Shown here in pieces: positions 16,467 through 24,754 of a DNA stretch of 24,754 nucleotides. The DNA comes from a virus. The notes below the pieces were generated by a model. The model saw nothing but the letters and a program-made list of their open reading frames with translations. It was not told the origin of the DNA and made no database searches. The stretch is from positions 1-24,754 of IMG/VR virus record IMGVR_UViG_3300010885_030294. The stretch is one strand, 5' to 3'. The number at the start of each line of letters is the position of its first letter. Position 1 is the stretch's first letter. Made by a program: the position numbers and the translations under genes.

Positions 16467-16503
16467 TTGTTTTCCTTTTTTCTAATTATAACTAAAAACA
16501 CGA

Positions 16504-16534
16504 CAGGGGCCAGACTAAAAAAGTCTGGCCCCTG
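16504..16534 (-). terminator. Strong terminator-like hairpin after the head genes
   Basis: A perfect 13-bp inverted repeat (CAGGGGCCAGACT) with a five-base loop lies 7 bases after the stop of the decoration gene. On the minus strand the stem is followed, after 5 bases, by TTTTT, so it can act as an intrinsic terminator for transcription coming from scaffold, capsid and decoration. On the plus strand ATTTATTT follows, so it might also act in the other direction. In phages such an element often leaks and lowers expression of the tail genes relative to the capsid gene. Confidence 0.8.
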
Positions 16535-16541
16535 CATTTAT

Positions 16542-17044: not shown

Positions 17045-18064
17045 TTAGGATTCAGCGTCGAAGAGAAGACCCTGGCCACCAAGGAAGTCAGCAATAAGCT
17101 GGCTCTTGACATACAGCTGAGCAGAACGAGCAGTTGTGCCACTGATGTATTCAAAAGGAGATACTGCGAAGTCGGCGTCAGAGTGGAATACGAGCTTGAT
17201 ACCATCGTAGTTGAGCAAGTAAGCTGAGTAGAATCCAGCACCTGCGGTTGAAGAGTTAGCAGCGAAGCCCATGACTGGGTCAGCTTCAACAATGGCATTA
17301 TTCCATGCAAGTGCAAGACGACCACCATCAAGTGTTTTCACATCGATGTAGCGTTCCTGAGCACGGAGGCTTTCACGGTAGAGTGCAAAGCTCTTCTGAC
17401 TCATGATGACATGCTTGATTTCGCCCATTGGAGCAACTGTCGAAGCAGAGATGCTGAGCTCAGAAAGACCCTTGAGACCGTTGGTTGCGAAGTTACCAGC
17501 GACATCGAAGAACTGATTCTGCCAACCGGTTACTGGGAAGGTAACCTTGCTGATACCACCAACAACGTTGGTCTGGTTAGCTGGAGTCTCAGGCTCAATA
17601 AAACCAGTTCCACCTGCGGTATCACCGTTTAGAGTATTGAGGGAGGTAAGAACAGTAGAGTTACCAACAAGTAACTGCTTGTTCATCTCTCTGCGGAGCA
17701 TACCCATGACTGAGCGCATACGAGCTTCAACAATCTTAACGATTGCCTTGTCGCCACTGTTCTCAAGCTCTTCCTTCTTGGTAACAACGATTGGAGCAAC
17801 GAAGTCACACCAGTCGTAGATTGCTGGACGAAGGATGTCATTAACTGCTAGTGAGACAGGCTCATAACCAGTTGCGAGCTGAGTGATTGAGCTGTGCTCT
17901 GCAAGTGCAAGAGGACGCTGAATCTTGATACCGCCATCTTCAGTCTCAACGCCACCGTTTTTACGGACACCGTCAAGGAAGGCTACCTTCTTGTAAAGTT
18001 CATCAACCTCTCCGTCTCTGATTGAATACAGAGTTGAGGAGAGCAGGTCGTTCGAAATAGACAT
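17045..18064 (-). CDS. Major capsid protein (HK97-fold type)
   Basis: A 339-residue protein directly downstream of the scaffold gene. A helix-rich middle (about 95-140: VVTKKEELENSGDKAIVKIV, then RMRSVMGMLRREMNKQLLVG) resembles the spine helix of HK97-fold capsid proteins. The N-terminal arm (ELYKKVAFLDGVRKNGGVET) and the C-terminal domain (VIMSQKSFALYRESLRAQER, IVEADPVMG, IKLVFHSDADFA) also match this class. Codon usage is clearly biased to C-ending codons (AAC, GAC, ATC), marking it as highly expressed. The mRNA leader has a short hairpin directly in front of AGGAG. The identification rests on gene order, size, fold-like pattern and expression signature. Confidence 0.88.
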   Translation of the reverse strand: MSISNDLLSSTLYSIRDGEVDELYKKVAFLDGVRKNGGVETEDGGIKIQRPLALAEHSSITQLATGYEPVSLAVNDILRPAIYDWCDFVAPIVVTKKEELENSGDKAIVKIVEARMRSVMGMLRREMNKQLLVGNSTVLTSLNTLNGDTAGGTGFIEPETPANQTNVVGGISKVTFPVTGWQNQFFDVAGNFATNGLKGLSELSISASTVAPMGEIKHVIMSQKSFALYRESLRAQERYIDVKTLDGGRLALAWNNAIVEADPVMGFAANSSTAGAGFYSAYLLNYDGIKLVFHSDADFAVSPFEYISGTTARSAQLYVKSQLIADFLGGQGLLFDAES

Positions 18065-18243
18065 TTTGTTTTTCTCCTGCGCATTCTGCGCTATTAAGTT
18101 ACACTAATTTTTACTTGGATTATCCGGCCTATCCGGGTTCCGATTTTGCTCTCCTCCGCCAGTTTTTGTTATGGTATCCAAAGGGTCATAACAGGGTCGG
18201 GAAAGGTTGCACCTAATACTATGTATTTAATGCTTTGCGAGAG
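18065..18243. other. Intergenic leader of the major capsid gene
   Basis: This is the longest gap inside the virion operon (179 bases). On the minus strand, the last part is a hairpin GCGCA-GAA-TGCGC (18079-18091) touching the AGGAG of the capsid gene. Further upstream there is an inverted repeat GTTATG...CATAAC (18168-18173 and 18187-18192) with a 13-base loop, and a short direct repeat CCGGATA. No convincing -10/-35 pair is visible, although GATAAT occurs. It may carry a separate capsid promoter or a processing site that gives the capsid gene its own stable mRNA. Confidence 0.5.
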
Positions 18244-19050
18244 CTATCGCTTAGCATTGTCAGCTATACTCTTATGATACAAATAGGCATCATAAGCATT
18301 GTTAAACTTTGGTGTGCCTTTAGGTGTTACAGTTGAACCACCAGCAGATTTTTGTGCAGTTGCCTTATGTGCTGATTTCTGCTCAGAAAGACGCTGACGT
18401 TCGACCTTTAGTTTTTCACTATCAACCTTGGCTTTAACAATGTAGAATGCATCTTCAAGTTTAAGTTCAGGACGCTCCTGAAGCATTTGAAGAATAGGCT
18501 TTCTGTATTCATCTTGTGTCAATTCTGGATTTTCTGCCTTAAATCTTTCAAGTGCCATTTTTCTCTGTTCCGCCTGAACCTGTTCCTGAGCAGGTTTAAG
18601 CATTTCCTGAAGCATTAGAGTTGCTTGACGTTTGATTTCAGACTTCATACCTTCAGGGTCAAATAAATCATACTCGGCTGAAGTGTCAACATCCTTTACC
18701 ATCTTTGCAAGTGGTCCTTCAAGCACACCTGACTTTGTATTTGTCAATTCAGCACGTAGACGTTCAATTTCTTTGCGTTCATTTGCAAGTGTCTGAGTCT
18801 TTCGGCTATAGTCAGCTCTGAGGTTGGCAATGTGCTTTCTTACATCTTCAGGCACATGCTGCATCCAATGTGAAAGTGGCTTCATTCCTTTATGTTGAGC
18901 ATCATCCTTAAATTCAGCAAAATCACTTTCAGTGAGATTGATGATTTCGTCAATTGTGAGGTCTGACTCATAAGAATCAGGTGTCTCGGTCTGGACATTT
19001 TCAGTCTGGACCGAGGTATCGTCTGCAACGGTCTCGGTTGTGTCTAGCAT
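18244..19050 (-). CDS. Capsid scaffolding protein
   Basis: A 268-residue, highly charged helical protein with the scaffold layout. The N-terminus is acidic (about 1-52, with ESDLTIDEIINLTESDFAEF). Coiled-coil helices follow at about 78-106 (RKTQTLANERKEIERLRAEL) and about 135-225, then a Lys/Gly/Thr-rich linker (about 225-245) and a short basic C-terminus (YDAYLYHKSIADNAKR). Scaffolds nucleate capsid assembly through the basic end and leave or are degraded later. It sits directly before the major capsid gene. Its ribosome binding site AAGGAG lies inside copy A of the dispersed repeat, so the repeat is part of its leader. ATG spacing is short (4 bases). Confidence 0.85.
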   Translation of the reverse strand: MLDTTETVADDTSVQTENVQTETPDSYESDLTIDEIINLTESDFAEFKDDAQHKGMKPLSHWMQHVPEDVRKHIANLRADYSRKTQTLANERKEIERLRAELTNTKSGVLEGPLAKMVKDVDTSAEYDLFDPEGMKSEIKRQATLMLQEMLKPAQEQVQAEQRKMALERFKAENPELTQDEYRKPILQMLQERPELKLEDAFYIVKAKVDSEKLKVERQRLSEQKSAHKATAQKSAGGSTVTPKGTPKFNNAYDAYLYHKSIADNAKR

Positions 19051-19057
19051 TTTTCTC

Positions 19058-19079
19058 CTTAAGGTACTACCAATGCTTG
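19058..19079 (-). repeat. Dispersed element, copy A (scaffold leader)
   Basis: Carries the invariant 19-base core AGCATTGGTAGTACCTTAA on the minus strand, followed by GGAGAAAAATG, so the element runs into the ribosome binding site and start of the scaffold gene. The upstream arm ACTACAA pairs with TGGTAGT at six of seven positions. A preceding AGACAGACAG (19091-19100) is shared with copy B, making the pair a tandem duplication with a period near 50 bases. Possible roles are a phage promoter, an RNA hairpin or an operator. Confidence 0.9.
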
Positions 19080-19109
19080 TAGTTTTTATTCTGTCTGTCT
19101 TGTCTTGCG

Positions 19110-19128
19110 TTAAGGTACTACCAATGCT
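19110..19128 (-). repeat. Dispersed element, copy B (upstream of copy A)
   Basis: The same 19-base core on the minus strand, 51 bases upstream of copy A with respect to transcription. Its upstream arm ACTACCA pairs perfectly with TGGTAGT around a GCAT loop. The core is followed by CG rather than GG, so it lacks the ribosome binding site part. AGACAGACAG at 19139-19148 precedes it as in copy A. It lies wholly between the genes at 19152-19685 and 18244-19050. Confidence 0.9.
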
Positions 19129-19151
19129 GGTAGTTAATCTGTCTGTCTATC

Positions 19152-19685
19152 TTACATACGTCCCATCATTAGTTTGTCAGCATTTTCAGATGACATTTCC
19201 TCTTCAGGCATTCCACCCTCTTCACCAGCCTCAGTGGCCTTGGTTTCATTCTTTGGTGGCTCCTTTAGAAACTTCTTGAATTCTTTATTCTTGGCAAGTT
19301 GATTGAGTTTGCCAGCAAGTAACATCAAACTCGTGTCATCCTTTAGTGTGTTGAAGTCAATTGCCATGTCGGCACCAACAATTTCCTCAGCTATTGCGTC
19401 ATCCACCGCAGCTTTGAACATTGATAGAATTCGAAAAAAGTCGGTTGGAAGCTGATTGACCTCTTCAGCAATCATAGGATAGTCAGGTGTCTGACCAAAT
19501 AATGGTAGCATAATGTTTGTATTTTTAACCAATGGGCCAAGACCTTTTGGTGTAAATTTACCTTTAGGTGCCATCTCATTCATGGTTGACTCATCTTCAT
19601 ATTGAGCCTCATCTGTCATGCCTGAGACTGGAGATGGCTCATTGCCCATCATTTCTATACTAACTTTCATGTTTTTGTTTTTCAC
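19152..19685 (-). CDS. Unknown virion-module protein upstream of scaffold
   Basis: A 177-residue protein, acidic overall, with an N-terminal Met/Glu/Pro-rich disordered region, a probable helical core (about 75-145: TDFFRILSMFKAAVDDAIAE and LAGKLNQLAKNKEFKKFLKE) and an acidic tail (EAGEEGGMPEEEMSSENAD). The start is probably GTG at 19685 because AGGAG lies 6 bases before it; an ATG five codons in is the alternative. No family is recognised. Its place between portal and scaffold and its acidic helical nature would suit a minor head or assembly factor, but this is only inference from position. Confidence 0.72.
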   Translation of the reverse strand: MKNKNMKVSIEMMGNEPSPVSGMTDEAQYEDESTMNEMAPKGKFTPKGLGPLVKNTNIMLPLFGQTPDYPMIAEEVNQLPTDFFRILSMFKAAVDDAIAEEIVGADMAIDFNTLKDDTSLMLLAGKLNQLAKNKEFKKFLKEPPKNETKATEAGEEGGMPEEEMSSENADKLMMGRM

Positions 19686-19686
19686 T

Positions 19687-20172
19687 TCAGACTCCTACTA
19701 ATGGTTGTGAATAAGTATTATCCAATTCTCCACTGAGACATTTCTCAGCAGTGAAAGTATTGACAATTGCGTCTTCTTTTGACATTGTCTTCAAGTTTTC
19801 CTGATACTGACGAGAGAGGTCATCTTGTGCAGACCAATGATTAGACAATTTTTCCTGAGTATTGGCAACAAAGTCTTTACCAAGGTCAGTTTCATTGACA
19901 AAGCCACGTTTATTCATTTCCTTGGCTTCTTCCCAAACATTGGCAACATTACGACCAAGAGCTTTTGAAAACATGGTGTGTGACATACCGGCACTCCAAT
20001 TACCATGCCAACCGCCAGGTGTTTTGGCAATAACTGAAACAATTGGTAATGCATAACGACCATCCTCAGCAACAAGTCTTGCTGGTTTCTCACTCATCTT
20101 ACAAAGGTGTTCAATAATCTGATTGGTTGCTGTCCCATCAGCATTATGAATGCGGTATTCATACAAAGGCAA
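19687..20172 (-). CDS. FmdB-like small protein lacking the zinc-ribbon cysteines
   Basis: A 161-residue protein whose first 60 residues follow the FmdB-family pattern: MPLYEYR at 1-7, a central MSEKPARL (26-33), and a C-terminal strand ending GGWHGNW (53-59). In FmdB proteins, two CxxC pairs in this stretch bind zinc. Here only C24 remains, so the metal site appears lost. The remaining 100 residues are helical and charged. The start is TTG at 20172, supported by AGGAG 6 bases upstream, inside the end of the portal gene. FmdB-like genes are known between portal and capsid genes in some phages, where their role is unclear. The resemblance is by eye and should be tested with a profile search. 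Confidence 0.65.
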   Translation of the reverse strand: MPLYEYRIHNADGTATNQIIEHLCKMSEKPARLVAEDGRYALPIVSVIAKTPGGWHGNWSAGMSHTMFSKALGRNVANVWEEAKEMNKRGFVNETDLGKDFVANTQEKLSNHWSAQDDLSRQYQENLKTMSKEDAIVNTFTAEKCLSGELDNTYSQPLVGV

Positions 20173-20173
20173 T

Positions 20174-21856
20174 TTATGCTCCTCTTAATTTTTGAACTGT
20201 TTGTGCAGCACTATTTATCTGTTCTCTTGGTCCAGCTTCTAAACGTTGGGCAGCCGCAGATGTTGGTGCTCTTACTGCTCCGGCCTGAGCCTCTCCAGCC
20301 TGAATGGCCTCACGTGCCTTGTCAAGGAATGAACGTGGAAGTTCATAAGCTCTAACAACTTCATCAAGAAGCACATCACCTGGAACACCAAGTGACTGAA
20401 GAGTTGGAAGTAGGGCAACCAGATTCTGTTTCTTCAGTGCATCTGAAAGTGGTTGGCTTCCCTGGTCAAGTGCAACAATCTTAAACTCAGCATTGAGGTC
20501 ATCAGGTGTAATAACCACACCCTTTCCACCAGCCTCAACAATGGCCTTTTCACCCTCATCAGCAAGTAAGTAAATGTAACGAAGATAAATGAGAGAAACA
20601 GTTTCAATCATGGAGTCACGCTCTCTGGCAAGTTTACCCATTTCTGAAGCTGCATAGGAAGCAATTGCTGTAATCTCAGTGGCCGATGCCTTGGTTGGTT
20701 GACCAGCAAATGACTGAATAACTGAACCTTTGGTGAGGTCCTGTTCGAGATAAGCTGAATAACGATCAAAGTTTGTGCTGATTGGTGTGATTGGCACTTC
20801 ACGAATAACACCATCAAGTGAATCATTATCAACAGCAATCATGGCACCATCAACACCTGCAGTTACTTTTGCAAGTGCCTCTTCATCCATTGTGCCTTCC
20901 TTGTAAAGATACTGACGGCTATCACGACGAACTGAGTTGGCCCAATAGGTGCGGAGAATGTTTTTCTCATAAAGCTGATCATAAACACGACCCATTGCCG
21001 AAATGCCTTCCATTGGAGAGTCAGGAATACGGCTATAATAGAGAAGACTGAGTGGTGGAATTGCTCTATCATCAACAGTTCTTAGCGGAATCTGTGCCTT
21101 TTCAAGCAGCTCTTCACCATTTTGCCACTGTTGTGTCCAGTAATAAACTTCATCCTGAAGGAGGTCATAAAGTTCAACAATCTGAATGTAGAGATAAGAA
21201 GAAGGGAGGTCATCGATTGATTGACGAGCTTGACCATTGTATCGTGGCATCGCACCGGATGGCCCGTATTTATCAAAATAGTCGCGTTTAGGAATAGCAG
21301 TAAATTTTTTGGCCCCGAATCTTTCTGTTGCATCTTGCAACGTTAGAAAATAAGTATGTCCGATAAATCTCTGCTGAAGGGGAGAACCCGCATCCCTATC
21401 AACGATGACCTCCCAAGGTGGAACAGCAACTACCTCAGCCTTGTCCAGCATTTGATTGGATTTCTGAGGAATTACTTTTAGTGCTGAATAATCATAAATG
21501 AGTGCAAGACGTGAAGCATTTTCAATCTGCTCACGTTTCTTAAACAGCCAACGATTGATGACTGATTGAGCAGCATCTGGATTTGAAGGAGACGAATTAC
21601 TCATTGTGGCAGCAACATCTTTACCAACCACAACTGCAGGTGCTCGACTGAATAGAGATGCAATGTAAGATTCAATGTAGCTATACCCATCAGGTGTTTC
21701 AACACGAATCATTGAATTATCATGCTGTAGTGTTCGCCAGAATTTTGTCTGGTAAACATCACGATACTTTTTCATTTCTGAAGCTCGCTGTTCCCAATAA
21801 TCATTGTGCTCAGAAAAAATGATTTTCAGTGTTTTAACAATGTCAGTCTTCTTCAT
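20174..21856 (-). CDS. Portal protein
   Basis: A 560-residue protein directly downstream of the large terminase and upstream of the scaffold-capsid genes, the expected place for the portal that forms the 12-fold DNA channel. Length and pattern fit podovirus portals: a helical N-terminus, the wing-like motif VPPWEVIVDRDAG (about 150-162), a long helix region around 395-425 with SATEITAIASYAASEMGKLA, and an Ala/Gln-rich C-terminal tail. The ATG at 21856 overlaps the terminase TGA as ATGA and has AGGAG 6 bases upstream; a longer start would add eight residues. Confidence is based on order, size and overall pattern. Confidence 0.87.
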   Translation of the reverse strand: MKKTDIVKTLKIIFSEHNDYWEQRASEMKKYRDVYQTKFWRTLQHDNSMIRVETPDGYSYIESYIASLFSRAPAVVVGKDVAATMSNSSPSNPDAAQSVINRWLFKKREQIENASRLALIYDYSALKVIPQKSNQMLDKAEVVAVPPWEVIVDRDAGSPLQQRFIGHTYFLTLQDATERFGAKKFTAIPKRDYFDKYGPSGAMPRYNGQARQSIDDLPSSYLYIQIVELYDLLQDEVYYWTQQWQNGEELLEKAQIPLRTVDDRAIPPLSLLYYSRIPDSPMEGISAMGRVYDQLYEKNILRTYWANSVRRDSRQYLYKEGTMDEEALAKVTAGVDGAMIAVDNDSLDGVIREVPITPISTNFDRYSAYLEQDLTKGSVIQSFAGQPTKASATEITAIASYAASEMGKLARERDSMIETVSLIYLRYIYLLADEGEKAIVEAGGKGVVITPDDLNAEFKIVALDQGSQPLSDALKKQNLVALLPTLQSLGVPGDVLLDEVVRAYELPRSFLDKAREAIQAGEAQAGAVRAPTSAAAQRLEAGPREQINSAAQTVQKLRGA

Positions 21857-23442
21857 TCGTATCTCCTGGTAGGGCCACAAGCCGCACCGTGGTTGTTAAT
21901 GATTTTATCAATACGTCTCTGCTTAATCCAATCAGGCATAACCATGATGTCAGGCAATCTAACATTATTTAGGCAAACACTCGCCAGAGATAATGCCATT
22001 GCACTGTCACTATGACCATCTGGTCCATTATGCTGAAGTTCAATGGTGCCTCTTTCATTTACAGTAATGGCACGCAATTCATCATAGGTAAGTCTATCAA
22101 CATGACGCATTTCTCCACTTTGTAACATCTTCTTCAGATTCTCAAAGGCGAATGTTTTTGTTTTGACTGAGGTGACCCAATCCTTGCCATCTTTGCCTTT
22201 CCAAAGACTGCCATAATGTTCATGTCGCAATTGATTGAGCACAATTCCACCAAAGTTGTTGGCCTCAACAAGGACCAATGCATCATTATAATCTCTTGCA
22301 ATGTCAATGATTTGTTCTGCAAGATTTGTTGGTTCGATTTTATTTGAACGCCAAACTGCTACAGGAGACCCAGTCAATTTGCTGAGTACGAAGATAACAG
22401 AATAATCTCGACCAACACCAGCAGCGACGTCAACGCCAATACCATAGGCATCATTTTGTTGTGGTCGTTCAAAAACACTCCAGCCAGGATTATCTATGCT
22501 GATGACTTCTACAGAACTAAAGTGCTCATCATGGAAATAAGTGGAGCCAGCAACTGCATAAGCCTCTTCAGGTGAAGCTGGAAACTCACGTCTGAATTTC
22601 TCAATACCCAATTTTCCAATACGCTGACGACGCCAAAGCAATTGTGCATCATTAAGGTCCCATCTCTCACGGAGTTCTTCCTCTTCAGGTCTCCAGGAAA
22701 GTGGAATGAGTTCGCCATCTTCATCACGAGGTGGTTCAATACGATAGTGTTTATGTCTAAACCAAGGGAAAAATAGACGATGCCAATCGGCTTCACCTTT
22801 CTCAGCACGCATCCATTCACGATGAATACCATCACCCCAATGATTGGCTGTGGATTCCATAATCATTTTGCCACCGTTTAGAGCAGCAATGGCAGTGGCT
22901 TTCAATTCATCTGGATTTTCAGCAAAGGCAAACTCAGAAACATGTAGAGCATTGCAACTGAAGGAGCGAAGACCACCTTTACCCTCAGCAGATGCAGCAA
23001 TAATACCAGCACCTGTGTCACCAAAGATTAATTCACCACCGTTATCACTTGAAATTGGTCTCTTTAGGCCAGCAGGTAGACTCTCATACATCCATTTGAT
23101 AATGCCAAGTAAATGTTTTGCTGAGGAGGCTTTGTGTGACATGGTGGCCACAGTGATGGGTTCCAATGAAGTATAAGCCTTCCAAAAGAGCCAAGCACAA
23201 ACAATGGTGGAGGAACCAATCTGTCGGCCCTTCATGATGAGGAGGTCTGAATCTCCTTGTAAGGCATTGATAATTTCAATTTGCTCATCATTGGGTATCA
23301 GATTAATTCTGGCACCCTTTTTGTCAACAATCTTCAATTTAGAAATAAACCCAATAGGGTCAAGGAGAATTGTTCTCCAAGGACCACCCAGTAATTTCTT
23401 GATTGTTGTGCCGCCACCGCGACTCTTTGCTGGACCAGACAT
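21853..23442 (-). CDS. terL: Terminase large subunit
   Basis: A 529-residue packaging motor with both domains visible. The ATPase part has a Walker A-like motif KGRQIGSST (71-79), a Walker B-like LHVSE with E170, and the coupling motif STAN (197-200). The RNase H-like nuclease part has GIGVDVAAGVGRDYS with D338, VLVEANNFGG with E393, and GHSDSAMAL with D479, which give the three metal-binding acidic residues. It cuts concatemeric DNA and pumps it through the portal. Its ATG overlaps the stop of the small gene upstream (TAATG) and its stop overlaps the portal start. The motif set makes this the firmest call in the window. Confidence 0.96.
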   Translation of the reverse strand: MSGPAKSRGGGTTIKKLLGGPWRTILLDPIGFISKLKIVDKKGARINLIPNDEQIEIINALQGDSDLLIMKGRQIGSSTIVCAWLFWKAYTSLEPITVATMSHKASSAKHLLGIIKWMYESLPAGLKRPISSDNGGELIFGDTGAGIIAASAEGKGGLRSFSCNALHVSEFAFAENPDELKATAIAALNGGKMIMESTANHWGDGIHREWMRAEKGEADWHRLFFPWFRHKHYRIEPPRDEDGELIPLSWRPEEEELRERWDLNDAQLLWRRQRIGKLGIEKFRREFPASPEEAYAVAGSTYFHDEHFSSVEVISIDNPGWSVFERPQQNDAYGIGVDVAAGVGRDYSVIFVLSKLTGSPVAVWRSNKIEPTNLAEQIIDIARDYNDALVLVEANNFGGIVLNQLRHEHYGSLWKGKDGKDWVTSVKTKTFAFENLKKMLQSGEMRHVDRLTYDELRAITVNERGTIELQHNGPDGHSDSAMALSLASVCLNNVRLPDIMVMPDWIKQRRIDKIINNHGAACGPTRRYE

Positions 23443-23741
23443 TAGTGAGGGGCGCTCCCGATTTCATCATCTTCCTCTTCATCCCCTTCAGGTGGTTTAC
23501 CCCAGTCACCAAAGTTTTCAGCATCATCAACCTTTACCGCAATTGTATCTTTACGAACACGCTCAAGATTGACAAGGGTATTGACAAAACCCACAATGTC
23601 ACGACCATTGAATGTACGAACTTTTACTTTATCCTTGATTTCCTCTTCAGTGAGTTTGAGACATGACCAAATAAATGTTTCCACATCTCGATTTCGGTAA
23701 CTACGTCTCATTACCAAGTCAACAGTTTCTTTACGGGGCAA
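23442..23741 (-). CDS. Small protein before terL, candidate small terminase subunit
   Basis: A 99-residue protein with a basic N-terminus (PRK at 2-4, RRSYRNR at 12-18), a helical middle (about 20-66) and a very acidic C-terminus (GDEEEDDE at 86-93). It lies directly before terL and overlaps it (TAATG), which is the usual place of the small terminase subunit that recognises phage DNA. It is shorter than most, and no helix-turn-helix is obvious. The start is TTG at 23741; GGAGG lies 6 bases before it, and no in-frame ATG fits better. A 13-base palindrome ATACTT-T-AAGTAT (23755-23767) sits just upstream of this site. The terminase role is inferred from position. Confidence 0.6.
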   Translation of the reverse strand: MPRKETVDLVMRRSYRNRDVETFIWSCLKLTEEEIKDKVKVRTFNGRDIVGFVNTLVNLERVRKDTIAVKVDDAENFGDWGKPPEGDEEEDDEIGSAPH

Positions 23742-24168
23742 AATGAACCTCCAGATACTTTAAGTATACACATTGTTCCTGCAATGTTTGGGTCAAATTC
23801 TGAGAAAAATTTTCTGGAAATTTTTTGGGTGATGTTGCTATGTGAGTTGTATGGGATTGATGTGTTGAGGTTGCCCGAGACTGATAATTTGTCCCAGTTG
23901 GTTGGATGTTCGAGGGCCTAACACCACTGTTTATGTTACACAGAGTTAAAGGTGGTAATAAAAACATTTCCCCAATAAACACACCATAAACACATTTCTA
24001 GTCTATATAACTTGCCACTACGGTAACTGGATAACATAAACAACTATACCCCCTGCGCCCTCCTCATAATGAGACAACCGCCATCATCAAAGTTGTATAA
24101 CCTGTGCAACGACATGCAACTTGTGGTATAATGAATCCATCAGGCACCAACAACAACGGAGAATCGGC
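23742..24168. promoter_or_regulatory. Divergent control region between late genes and the plus-strand gene
   Basis: A 427-base AT-rich stretch without a convincing gene separates the minus-strand virion operon from the only plus-strand gene. It contains the palindrome ATACTT-T-AAGTAT (23755-23767), an inverted repeat CATTG-TTCCTG-CAATG (23771-23786), and the octamer CATAAACA twice direct (23985-23992, 24035-24042) and once inverted (23928-23935), plus AATAAACA at 23974-23981. At the right end lies an extended -10 promoter for the plus-strand gene. On the minus strand TATACT lies near the terminase leader without a well-spaced -35. This looks like a regulatory switch region with operator-like sites. 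Confidence 0.6.
24104..24132 (+). promoter_or_regulatory. Extended -10 promoter of the plus-strand gene
   Basis: TGGTATAAT at 24124-24132 is a perfect extended -10 (TGN followed by TATAAT). The -35 position, 17 bases upstream, reads GTGCAA and is weak, as is common for extended -10 promoters. TGCAAC occurs twice (24105-24110 and 24115-24120), one helical turn apart and just upstream of the -10, so a regulator could bind here. Host sigma-70-type polymerase would be expected to use it early in infection. Confidence 0.7.
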
Positions 24169-24432
24169 ATGACCGGCAATACCATCTACATTGTTACTTG
24201 CATCCTTGATTATGGCGGTGGCTTTCAGACCTGGACCGAATACTTCCATAACCTCAATGATGCAATCGCTTCTTACCGGGAGTATGTGGAATCCACCAAT
24301 GATGACCCACAAACGGTTACTCTCCTTTCTCTCAATACTTCCAACCTGATTGAGGAGACCATCGAGTCTTTTGTGGGCACCGATGCAGACTTTGGTGGGT
24401 GTGAATGGATGAATGCTGAGGAACCCTCATAA
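24169..24432 (+). CDS. Unknown small plus-strand protein, possible early gene
   Basis: An 87-residue acidic protein (starts MTGNTIYIVTCILDYGGG, ends MNAEEPS). I chose the ATG at 24169 because GGAG lies 7 bases upstream and the extended -10 promoter is just before; an upstream in-frame TTG at 24121 lies inside that promoter and is not used here. Aromatic residues cluster in the middle (TWTEYFHNLNDAIASYREYV). There is no membrane segment or known motif. It is the only gene on this strand and opposes the virion genes, which suggests an early-expressed phage protein, for example a host-interacting or regulatory factor. Function unknown. Confidence 0.75.
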   Translation: MTGNTIYIVTCILDYGGGFQTWTEYFHNLNDAIASYREYVESTNDDPQTVTLLSLNTSNLIEETIESFVGTDADFGGCEWMNAEEPS

Positions 24433-24450
24433 CCCACAATCCCCAGGCGC

Positions 24451-24472
24451 CTTAAGGTACTACCAATGCTTG
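24451..24472 (-). repeat. Dispersed element, copy C
   Basis: The same 19-base core as copies A and B, read on the minus strand, 18 bases after the stop of the plus-strand gene. The flank is CAAGCATTGGTAG and then ACCTTAAGGCGCC, so it ends in two overlapping palindromes (CCTTAAGG and AGGCGCCT on the plus strand). An arm at 24488-24496 (ATTGGTAGT on the plus strand) pairs perfectly with ACTACCAAT of the core, giving a stem of 9 perfect base pairs plus further wobble pairs. Confidence 0.9.
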
Positions 24473-24505
24473 CTGTTATAGTAGTGTATTGGTAGTGCTC
24501 CTACC

Positions 24506-24523
24506 TGTGGGGGGCTATCCACA
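24506..24523. repeat. 18-base element, copy 1, with near-consensus DnaA box
   Basis: TGTGGGGGGCTATCCACA is a hairpin-like sequence with TGTGG and CCACA arms. Its right half CTATCCACA matches the bacterial DnaA box TTATCCACA at eight of nine positions. An identical copy lies 62 bases further right. The two flank a 44-base AT-rich stretch. Confidence 0.85.
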
Positions 24524-24530
24524 TAATGAT

Positions 24531-24560
24531 GCAAATATGAGCAAAATGTTGTAAATGTGT
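24531..24560 (+). repeat. Three degenerate 10-base repeats between the twin elements
   Basis: GCAAATATGA, GCAAAATGTT and GTAAATGTGT follow one another without gaps, so their shared GYAAA start recurs every 10 bases, one DNA turn. They are enclosed by the inverted arms AATGATG (24525-24531) and CATCATT (24561-24567). They could be iterons or a DNA-unwinding element. The similarity is modest and may be chance. Confidence 0.4.
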
Positions 24561-24567
24561 CATCATT

Positions 24568-24585
24568 TGTGGGGGGCTATCCACA
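24568..24585. repeat. 18-base element, copy 2, with near-consensus DnaA box
   Basis: Identical over 18 bases to the copy at 24506-24523 and in the same orientation, again with CTATCCACA at its right end. Perfect identity between two copies in non-coding DNA that otherwise differs suggests selection or a recent duplication. Confidence 0.85.
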
Positions 24586-24598
24586 GGTGGCGGATCTC

Positions 24599-24620
24599 CT
24601 TAAGGTACTACCAATGCTTG
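24599..24620 (-). repeat. Dispersed element, copy D
   Basis: The same core on the minus strand, followed by GGAGATCC, which closely matches the end of copy A (GGAGAAAA). A left arm ACCAAT (plus-strand ATTGGT at 24626-24631) pairs with ATTGGT of the core. No start codon follows at ribosome-binding distance, so here the AAGGAG is not acting as a ribosome binding site for any visible gene. Confidence 0.9.
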
Positions 24621-24643
24621 CAGTAATTGGTTGTATTGCTATT

Positions 24644-24660
24644 GGGGGGCAGAGCCCCCT
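24644..24660. repeat. GC-rich hairpin
   Basis: GGGGGC-AGA-GCCCCC (24645-24659) forms a perfect 6-bp stem with a 3-base loop, extended by a G-T pair. No run of T follows on either strand, so it is a poor intrinsic terminator. The motif GGGGGGC is shared with the two 18-base elements to the left, which may point to a common origin. Confidence 0.6.
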
Positions 24661-24754
24661 CCTCAGCATTACCAACCGTAAGTCTGCAGGGCCCATGGTG
24701 TAACTGAGAATAACTCCGCATTGCGGCGCTTGCCTGTTACATGGATTAGACCCC

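Follow-up and report, generated by a model that had tools for sequence, protein, structure and literature searches.

A stretch of viral DNA of 24,754 nt (IMG/VR record IMGVR_UViG_3300010885_030294, positions 1 to 24,754; hereafter the window) carries four copies of a 19-base element, AGCATTGGTAGTACCTTAA, and the question raised by this locus is what the element does. An earlier note on the same DNA had proposed that the 19-mer is a promoter of a T7-type single-subunit phage RNA polymerase, with two copies serving the scaffold and capsid genes and two lying upstream of the terminase operon. We tentatively favor a different reader: the 19-mer may be a phage-specific late-strand promoter element, most likely read by host RNA polymerase together with a small phage sigma-like protein. 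The element itself is real and well defined, it is most likely a late promoter of an ordinary kind, and the part worth following is its exchange for another element at matched sites in a sister phage.

Results

Four exact copies on one strand

All four copies were exact and lay on the minus strand only, in agreement with the earlier note, and no copy beyond these was found in the window when up to 3 mismatches were allowed; the chance number of copies expected from shuffles was 0.01. The 19-mer, looked up directly, had no match in IMG/VR, and a 21-mer had none in 84,980 prokaryote genomes. The copies (numbered 1 to 4 in Table 1) were directly followed by GG at 19059, 24452 and 24600 and by CG at 19110, with GGAGA at 19059 and 24600, which bears out the continuations that had been described, and copies 1 and 4 had 26 identical bases in common, CAAGCATTGGTAGTACCTTAAGGAGA. 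The placement in non-coding DNA also held. Copies 1 and 2 occupied a 101-nt gap between two open reading frames (ORFs), inside a tandem duplication of ~51 bp, and the AAGGAG of copy 1 doubled as the Shine-Dalgarno sequence of the scaffold ORF. Copy 4, which overlapped a mechanically called, 5'-open ORF (24577-24753), is very probably intergenic, because the upstream gene, by comparison with the sister phage L005, ends at 24669-24671.

Each copy had an inverted partner on its upstream side (Table 1), and a small dyad, GGTA-G-TACC, lay inside the element, which as a whole is asymmetric. Among random upstream 30-mers, and counted for a single copy, a 9-bp arm occurred in 0.06% of draws and a 6-bp arm in ~9%, while the chance of a 5-bp arm was ~0.3. 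Because of these frequencies, the inverted partner is unusual for the copy at 24452 and only suggestive for the other three. Between copies 4 and 3, a further sequence, TGTGGATAGCCCCCCACA, occurred twice (24568-24585 and 24506-24523); its ends are self-complementary, and CTATCCACA on the other strand is DnaA-box-like.

A different element in the matching slots of a sister phage

The earlier note had suggested looking in related phages for the element upstream of the same genes. In L005, a record of 5.65 kb whose terminase large subunit (TerL) and portal were 98% and 100% identical to those of the window, the 19-mer itself was absent. Instead, L005 carried another two-copy element, ATAGGCTAT-N10-TAGCGCAAG, in slots that matched those of the window: one copy ahead of the scaffold gene and the other in the control region, where a hairpin (read directly) separates it from the upstream gene's end. 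The two L005 copies agreed at 22 of 28 positions; 0 of 500 shuffles scored as high. Before the scaffold gene, L005 retained the outer borders and TACCTTAAGGAGA, and its DNA differed where the window has the 19-mers. When the window copy at 19110 was read directly, with its flank and without gaps, against the L005 control copy, 13 of 15 bases agreed (GTACCTTAACGCAAG against GTACATTAGCGCAAG). The more distant L083 had CTATACTTATACATTAGCGCA in its own control region, with 20 of 21 bases as in L005. When the relatives were searched for weaker copies of the 19-mer, only a single match with 6 mismatches came up, which was taken as chance.

The same element thus stood at two places in each phage and differed between the sisters, a pattern that suits recognition by a trans-acting phage factor that is itself diverging. 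It is conceivable, though we hold it doubtful, that a late-promoter element was replaced as a set at matched sites (the 19-mer against ATAGGCTAT-N10-TAGCGCAAG) between phages near-identical in terminase, portal and scaffold, in which case the ~30-kb group to which both belong would be a natural series of fast-changing promoter and sigma specificities inside a single virion lineage. The control region of L005 (L005:170-300) also held iterated AACTAGTTCAT repeats, possibly an operator or origin iterons.

No T7-type polymerase in the relatives

The window phage had a podovirus-type head module, to which deposited phages were only distantly similar (capsid identity <=28%). Its adaptor matched PF24175 SU10_adaptor (6e-7) and its portal, weakly, PF23899 SU10_portal; SU10 is a phiEco32-type podovirus. 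Many relatives of the phage were present in IMG/VR. Two of them, G003 (29,643 bp) and G007 (30,669 bp), both of IMG/VR class 'linear', overlapped exactly at their ends, by 127 and 62 bp, and are therefore probably complete, circularly assembling genomes. The window had no terminal overlap and, by comparison with these complete relatives, appears to be short of ~5 kb that would separate the lysis genes from the control region; scans with lysis-side proteins for this remainder returned no match. A host or prophage link was likewise not obtained, there being no relative in 84,980 bacterial and archaeal genomes.

If the 19-mer were read by a T7-type enzyme, then a cognate polymerase would be expected in such genomes. 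The single-subunit RNA polymerase family PF00940 was found neither in the window nor in G003, G007 or ~65 other related records, by a search in which T7, as positive control, was recovered at 9.9e-110. The 1784-aa virion protein showed no similarity to polymerases and was for that reason set aside as a candidate N4-type virion polymerase. Alignment of the 19-mer with the T7, T3, SP6, K11 and KP34 promoters was no better than that of shuffled 19-mers. A resemblance to the Syn5 promoter, ATTGGGCACCCGTAA (PMC3950665, PMC6834552), reached p 0.003 by shuffling, before correction for the six promoters compared, and is a lead only. With the control working, the absence of a cognate polymerase in the two complete relatives and the ~65 records and the lack of T7, T3, SP6 or K11 likeness spoke against the T7-type part of the original proposal, whereas a promoter-like role retained circumstantial support from strand, intergenic position, the pair before scaffold and capsid, the terminator and the exchange in the sister phage.

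A 349-aa protein in G003, G007 and G012 carried the polymerase-A-like motifs DIVSCF and HDG; proteins of ~335-362 aa with these motifs lay at L089:16170-17216 (-), L091:16174-17181 (-) and L099:9001-10092 (-). This is possibly a replication protein of the ~30-kb phages. It had no Pfam or PHROGs match in the copies scanned (G003, L089), and a further viral scan with the 349-aa protein returned no new relative. It was also considered as a possible reduced RNA polymerase, for which the AlphaFold model (pLDDT 40, three sequences) was of no use.

Sigma-like proteins and strand-biased motifs in the relatives

A stand-alone sigma-70 region 4 protein of ~80-180 aa was present in 24 of 40 related records, with a match that exceeded the curated cut-off in 18, and its gene lay mostly 0.3-3.5 kb upstream of TerL. 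The family member nearest to the window was at L083:1151-1390; other loci were L097:1261-1593 (-), L055:516-908 and about 30 more, and the N-terminal part of the family showed a WRY...PED..I..LDG pattern. For region 2, the relatives gave only two matches, both below threshold and in ORFs of ~200 aa. These weakly similar ORFs, L143:1327-1914 (+) and L044:1014-1619 (-), are near the region 4 gene and possibly encode a second or split sigma.

The intergenic DNA of the relatives contained a motif, CTTGAC-N5-CT...TAG, that was biased to the late strand (126 segments forward vs 34 reverse). Its 99 distinct sites had C in 76% and T in 73% at positions 11 and 12. Several sites stood directly between an intrinsic terminator and the next gene and are therefore good indirect evidence of promoters. 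Examples were seen in intergenic regions of distant relatives, at L055 4613 and 11613. The clade of the window was without the CTTGAC motif and had GGAACAANGTGTATATTTA directly before the terminase gene; this box recurred, with 0-5 and mostly 0-1 mismatches, in the window, L005, L007, L010, L011, L017, L019 and L112.

Genes and signals around the copies

The features surrounding the copies are collected in Table 1. The 19-mers stood at only two places, one of which is not an operon start. As the earlier note had it, one pair lay directly before scaffold and capsid; the description of the other pair as upstream of the terminase operon is only loosely true, because the start of the small terminase gene (23741) lies ~710-880 nt downstream of the copies at 24452 and 24600, with the opposite-strand 87-aa ORF between, and because the terminase has a conserved box of its own. 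A sigma-70 promoter scan of the window gave about as many sites as scans of shuffles, and neither an Rfam family nor a tRNA was found in the window.

Table 1. Positions in the window of the 19-mer copies, their inverted partners and neighboring features.
Feature	Position	Strand	Remarks
19-mer copy 1	19059..19077	-	9 nt before scaffold ATG; then GGAGA (Shine-Dalgarno)
19-mer copy 2	19110..19128	-	51 nt upstream of copy 1; tandem-duplicated unit; then CGCAAG
19-mer copy 3	24452..24470	-	Upstream control region; then GGCGCC
19-mer copy 4	24600..24618	-	Behind G+C hairpin after upstream gene end; then GGAGA
Inverted partner ACTAC	19079..19083	-	Pairs with GTAGT of copy 1; arm 5 bp, gap 8 nt
Inverted partner ACTACC	19129..19134	-	Pairs with GGTAGT of copy 2; arm 6 bp, gap 6 nt
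Inverted partner ACTACCAAT	24488..24496	-	Pairs with ATTGGTAGT of copy 3; arm 9 bp, gap 20 nt
Inverted partner ACCAAT	24626..24631	-	Pairs with ATTGGT of copy 4; arm 6 bp, gap 10 nt
G+C hairpin GGGGG-CTCTG-CCCCC	24645..24659	-	Between upstream gene end and copy 4; read directly
87-aa ORF, opposite strand	24169..24432	+	Between copy 3 and terminase genes
Promoter-like box GGAACAATGTGTATACTTA	23761..23779	-	Directly before small terminase gene; kept in close relatives; competing terminase-operon promoter
Probable small terminase	23442..23741	-	Directly before TerL
Terminase large subunit	21853..23442	-	
Scaffold-like ORF	18244..19050	-	First gene after copies 1 and 2
Major capsid protein	17045..18064	-	phrog_9953, 3e-26
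Strong intrinsic terminator ending scaffold-capsid unit	16503..16535	-	14-bp stem, T tail

Between scaffold and capsid, the window also contained a conserved leader RNA (18100-18211, minus strand, with GCAACCTTTCCC) that was present in many relatives and had no Rfam match. In its first hairpin (18167-18193) the pairing was kept while the arms varied among relatives: the mean stem was 6.7 bp vs 4.7 after half-swapping, with a maximum of 5.35 in 500 swaps. The swap test was used because RNAalifold gave no pairs on the capsid-leader alignment, probably owing to gaps.

Discussion

We favor an arrangement like that of phiEco32 and 7-11 because a T7-type polymerase was absent from the relatives, a sigma region 4 protein was present in 24 of 40 of them, and strand-biased motifs followed terminators. 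Late in infection, a phage sigma-like protein would redirect host RNA polymerase to start at the 19-mer. The copies at 19110 and 19059 would drive scaffold and capsid up to the terminator at 16503-16535, and those at 24600 and 24452, in the control region, would give rise to leader transcripts that begin upstream of the terminase genes, the terminase operon itself probably using the box at 23761-23779 instead. We infer all three of the following: the transcript starts at the 19-mer, the sigma-like reader, and the presence of such a factor in the remaining ~5 kb of the window phage.

Several observations weigh against a sigma-dependent late promoter. The 19-mer contains no conserved -35 element and only a weak -10 (TACCTT). 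Copy 3 would give an antisense transcript into the opposite-strand ORF, and the terminase operon is preceded by a conserved box of its own (23761-23779). Among the ORFs of the window, which is ~5 kb short, none was sigma-like; region 4 was not detectable in the complete close relatives G003 and G007, and at the place of the region-4 gene G003 had only an unassigned, helix-turn-helix-looking ORF. Close relatives other than L005 had, before the scaffold gene, either no element or no intergenic gap.

The 19-mer could instead be an operator: a phage repressor or activator would bind it at several late-strand places, as at a stoperator-like or activator site, and it would not itself be the start signal. 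We consider this unlikely. Exact, short, intergenic copies in a single orientation would suit an operator, as would the dyad together with an upstream inverted partner at variable distance from each copy, and a swap between near-identical phages is also to be expected of heteroimmune operators; but there are four copies only, in two clusters, and the element is asymmetric. Furthermore, the scanned proteins of a complete relative included no match to a repressor or integrase family, and a temperate life is unproven, the bacterial and archaeal genomes having yielded no relative. Less probable again is an element of the leader RNA acting in translation initiation, in the manner of the SAS/ESAS repeats, whose hairpin and Shine-Dalgarno sequence would tune scaffold translation while the other copies arose by duplication. 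The end of copy 1 in the scaffold Shine-Dalgarno sequence, the inclusion of GGAGA in the 26 nt that copies 1 and 4 have in common, the hairpins that the inverted partners could form and the retention of TACCTTAAGGAGA in L005 are all in its favor. However, no start codon lies close enough to copies 2, 3 and 4 to be used, the predicted folds vary between copies (that of copy 1 is weak, at -5.2 kcal/mol), and it is sequence, not pairing, that is conserved in the L005 and L083 versions.

A short repeat that spread recently, as a recombination product or tiny mobile element, and has no regulatory function would account for copies that are 100% identical, for the ~51-bp tandem duplication holding copies 1 and 2, and for the absence of the 19-mer from relatives. 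It would not account for the bias in strand and placement, nor for the other repeated element in the same slots of the sister phage; and since the flanks of the distant copies are unrelated, the sharp borders of the 19-mer require selection. We therefore rate such a repeat as improbable, below the two readings just discussed. The promoter of a T7-type polymerase, the proposal of the earlier note, ranks last and is in our judgment very improbable. The length of the element, the purine run after TTAA, the low copy number and the Syn5 resemblance, to one of six promoters compared, speak for it, but with PF00940 lacking in the two complete relatives and the other records, and with the 1784-aa virion protein offering no polymerase similarity, only the remaining ~5 kb of the window phage could hide the enzyme.

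If the 19-mer is indeed a phage-specific late promoter read with a sigma-like protein, an uncultured group of ~30-kb podoviruses would switch to late genes without a polymerase of its own. The group would then allow changing promoters and regulators to be compared against a nearly constant background of virion genes, and exact intergenic repeats in phages would not call for a T7-type reading by default.

Among known systems, the T7 and Syn5 promoters share with the 19-mer a compact element of ~20 bp before a G-rich start, the likeness to Syn5 being visual, and differ in that the complete relatives of the window have no cognate polymerase. Unlike Cluster A stoperators, which are many asymmetric sites for a phage repressor spread over the genome, the 19-mer has four sites in two clusters, and no repressor was found among the scanned proteins of a complete relative. 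The SAS/ESAS of Cluster K mycobacteriophages combine a short asymmetric repeat in one direction, partly overlapping the Shine-Dalgarno sequence, with an upstream imperfect inverted repeat at a variable spacer (PMC3203893). The 19-mer likewise has an upstream inverted repeat with a variable spacer (arms 5-9 bp), but only one of its four copies (19059) is at a start codon, and SASs lie in the non-structural half, at 11-19 copies per genome. In T4, gp33 is a sigma4-like protein that acts with host RNA polymerase at late promoters (PMC2988020). The small stand-alone protein of sigma-domain-4 type in the window's relatives recalls the split sigma gp33/gp55; gp33, however, mimics sigma4 although its sequence is not similar to that of sigma, and it does not read DNA; the relatives, for their part, offer no confirmed region-2 partner, only the two weak sub-threshold matches.

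The short late promoters of phiEco32 and 7-11 are read by host RNA polymerase together with a phage sigma (phi32_gp36, SaPh711_gp47) (PMC8948821, PMC4331800); they are low in number and were found as conserved intergenic repeats (PMC4331800), and the sigma-dependent promoters of related phages are unrelated in sequence and similar in genome position (PMC8948821). The window differs from these phages in that its complete relatives are ~30 kb, in that the regulator of the relatives is a stand-alone region 4, to which phi32_gp36 has no homology, and in that the 19-mer matches neither TAATGTATA nor GTAAtg-(16)-aCTA. Like them, it has an SU10-type portal and adaptor and a few exact intergenic repeats upstream of structural genes, and its related phages carry differing elements at similar positions.

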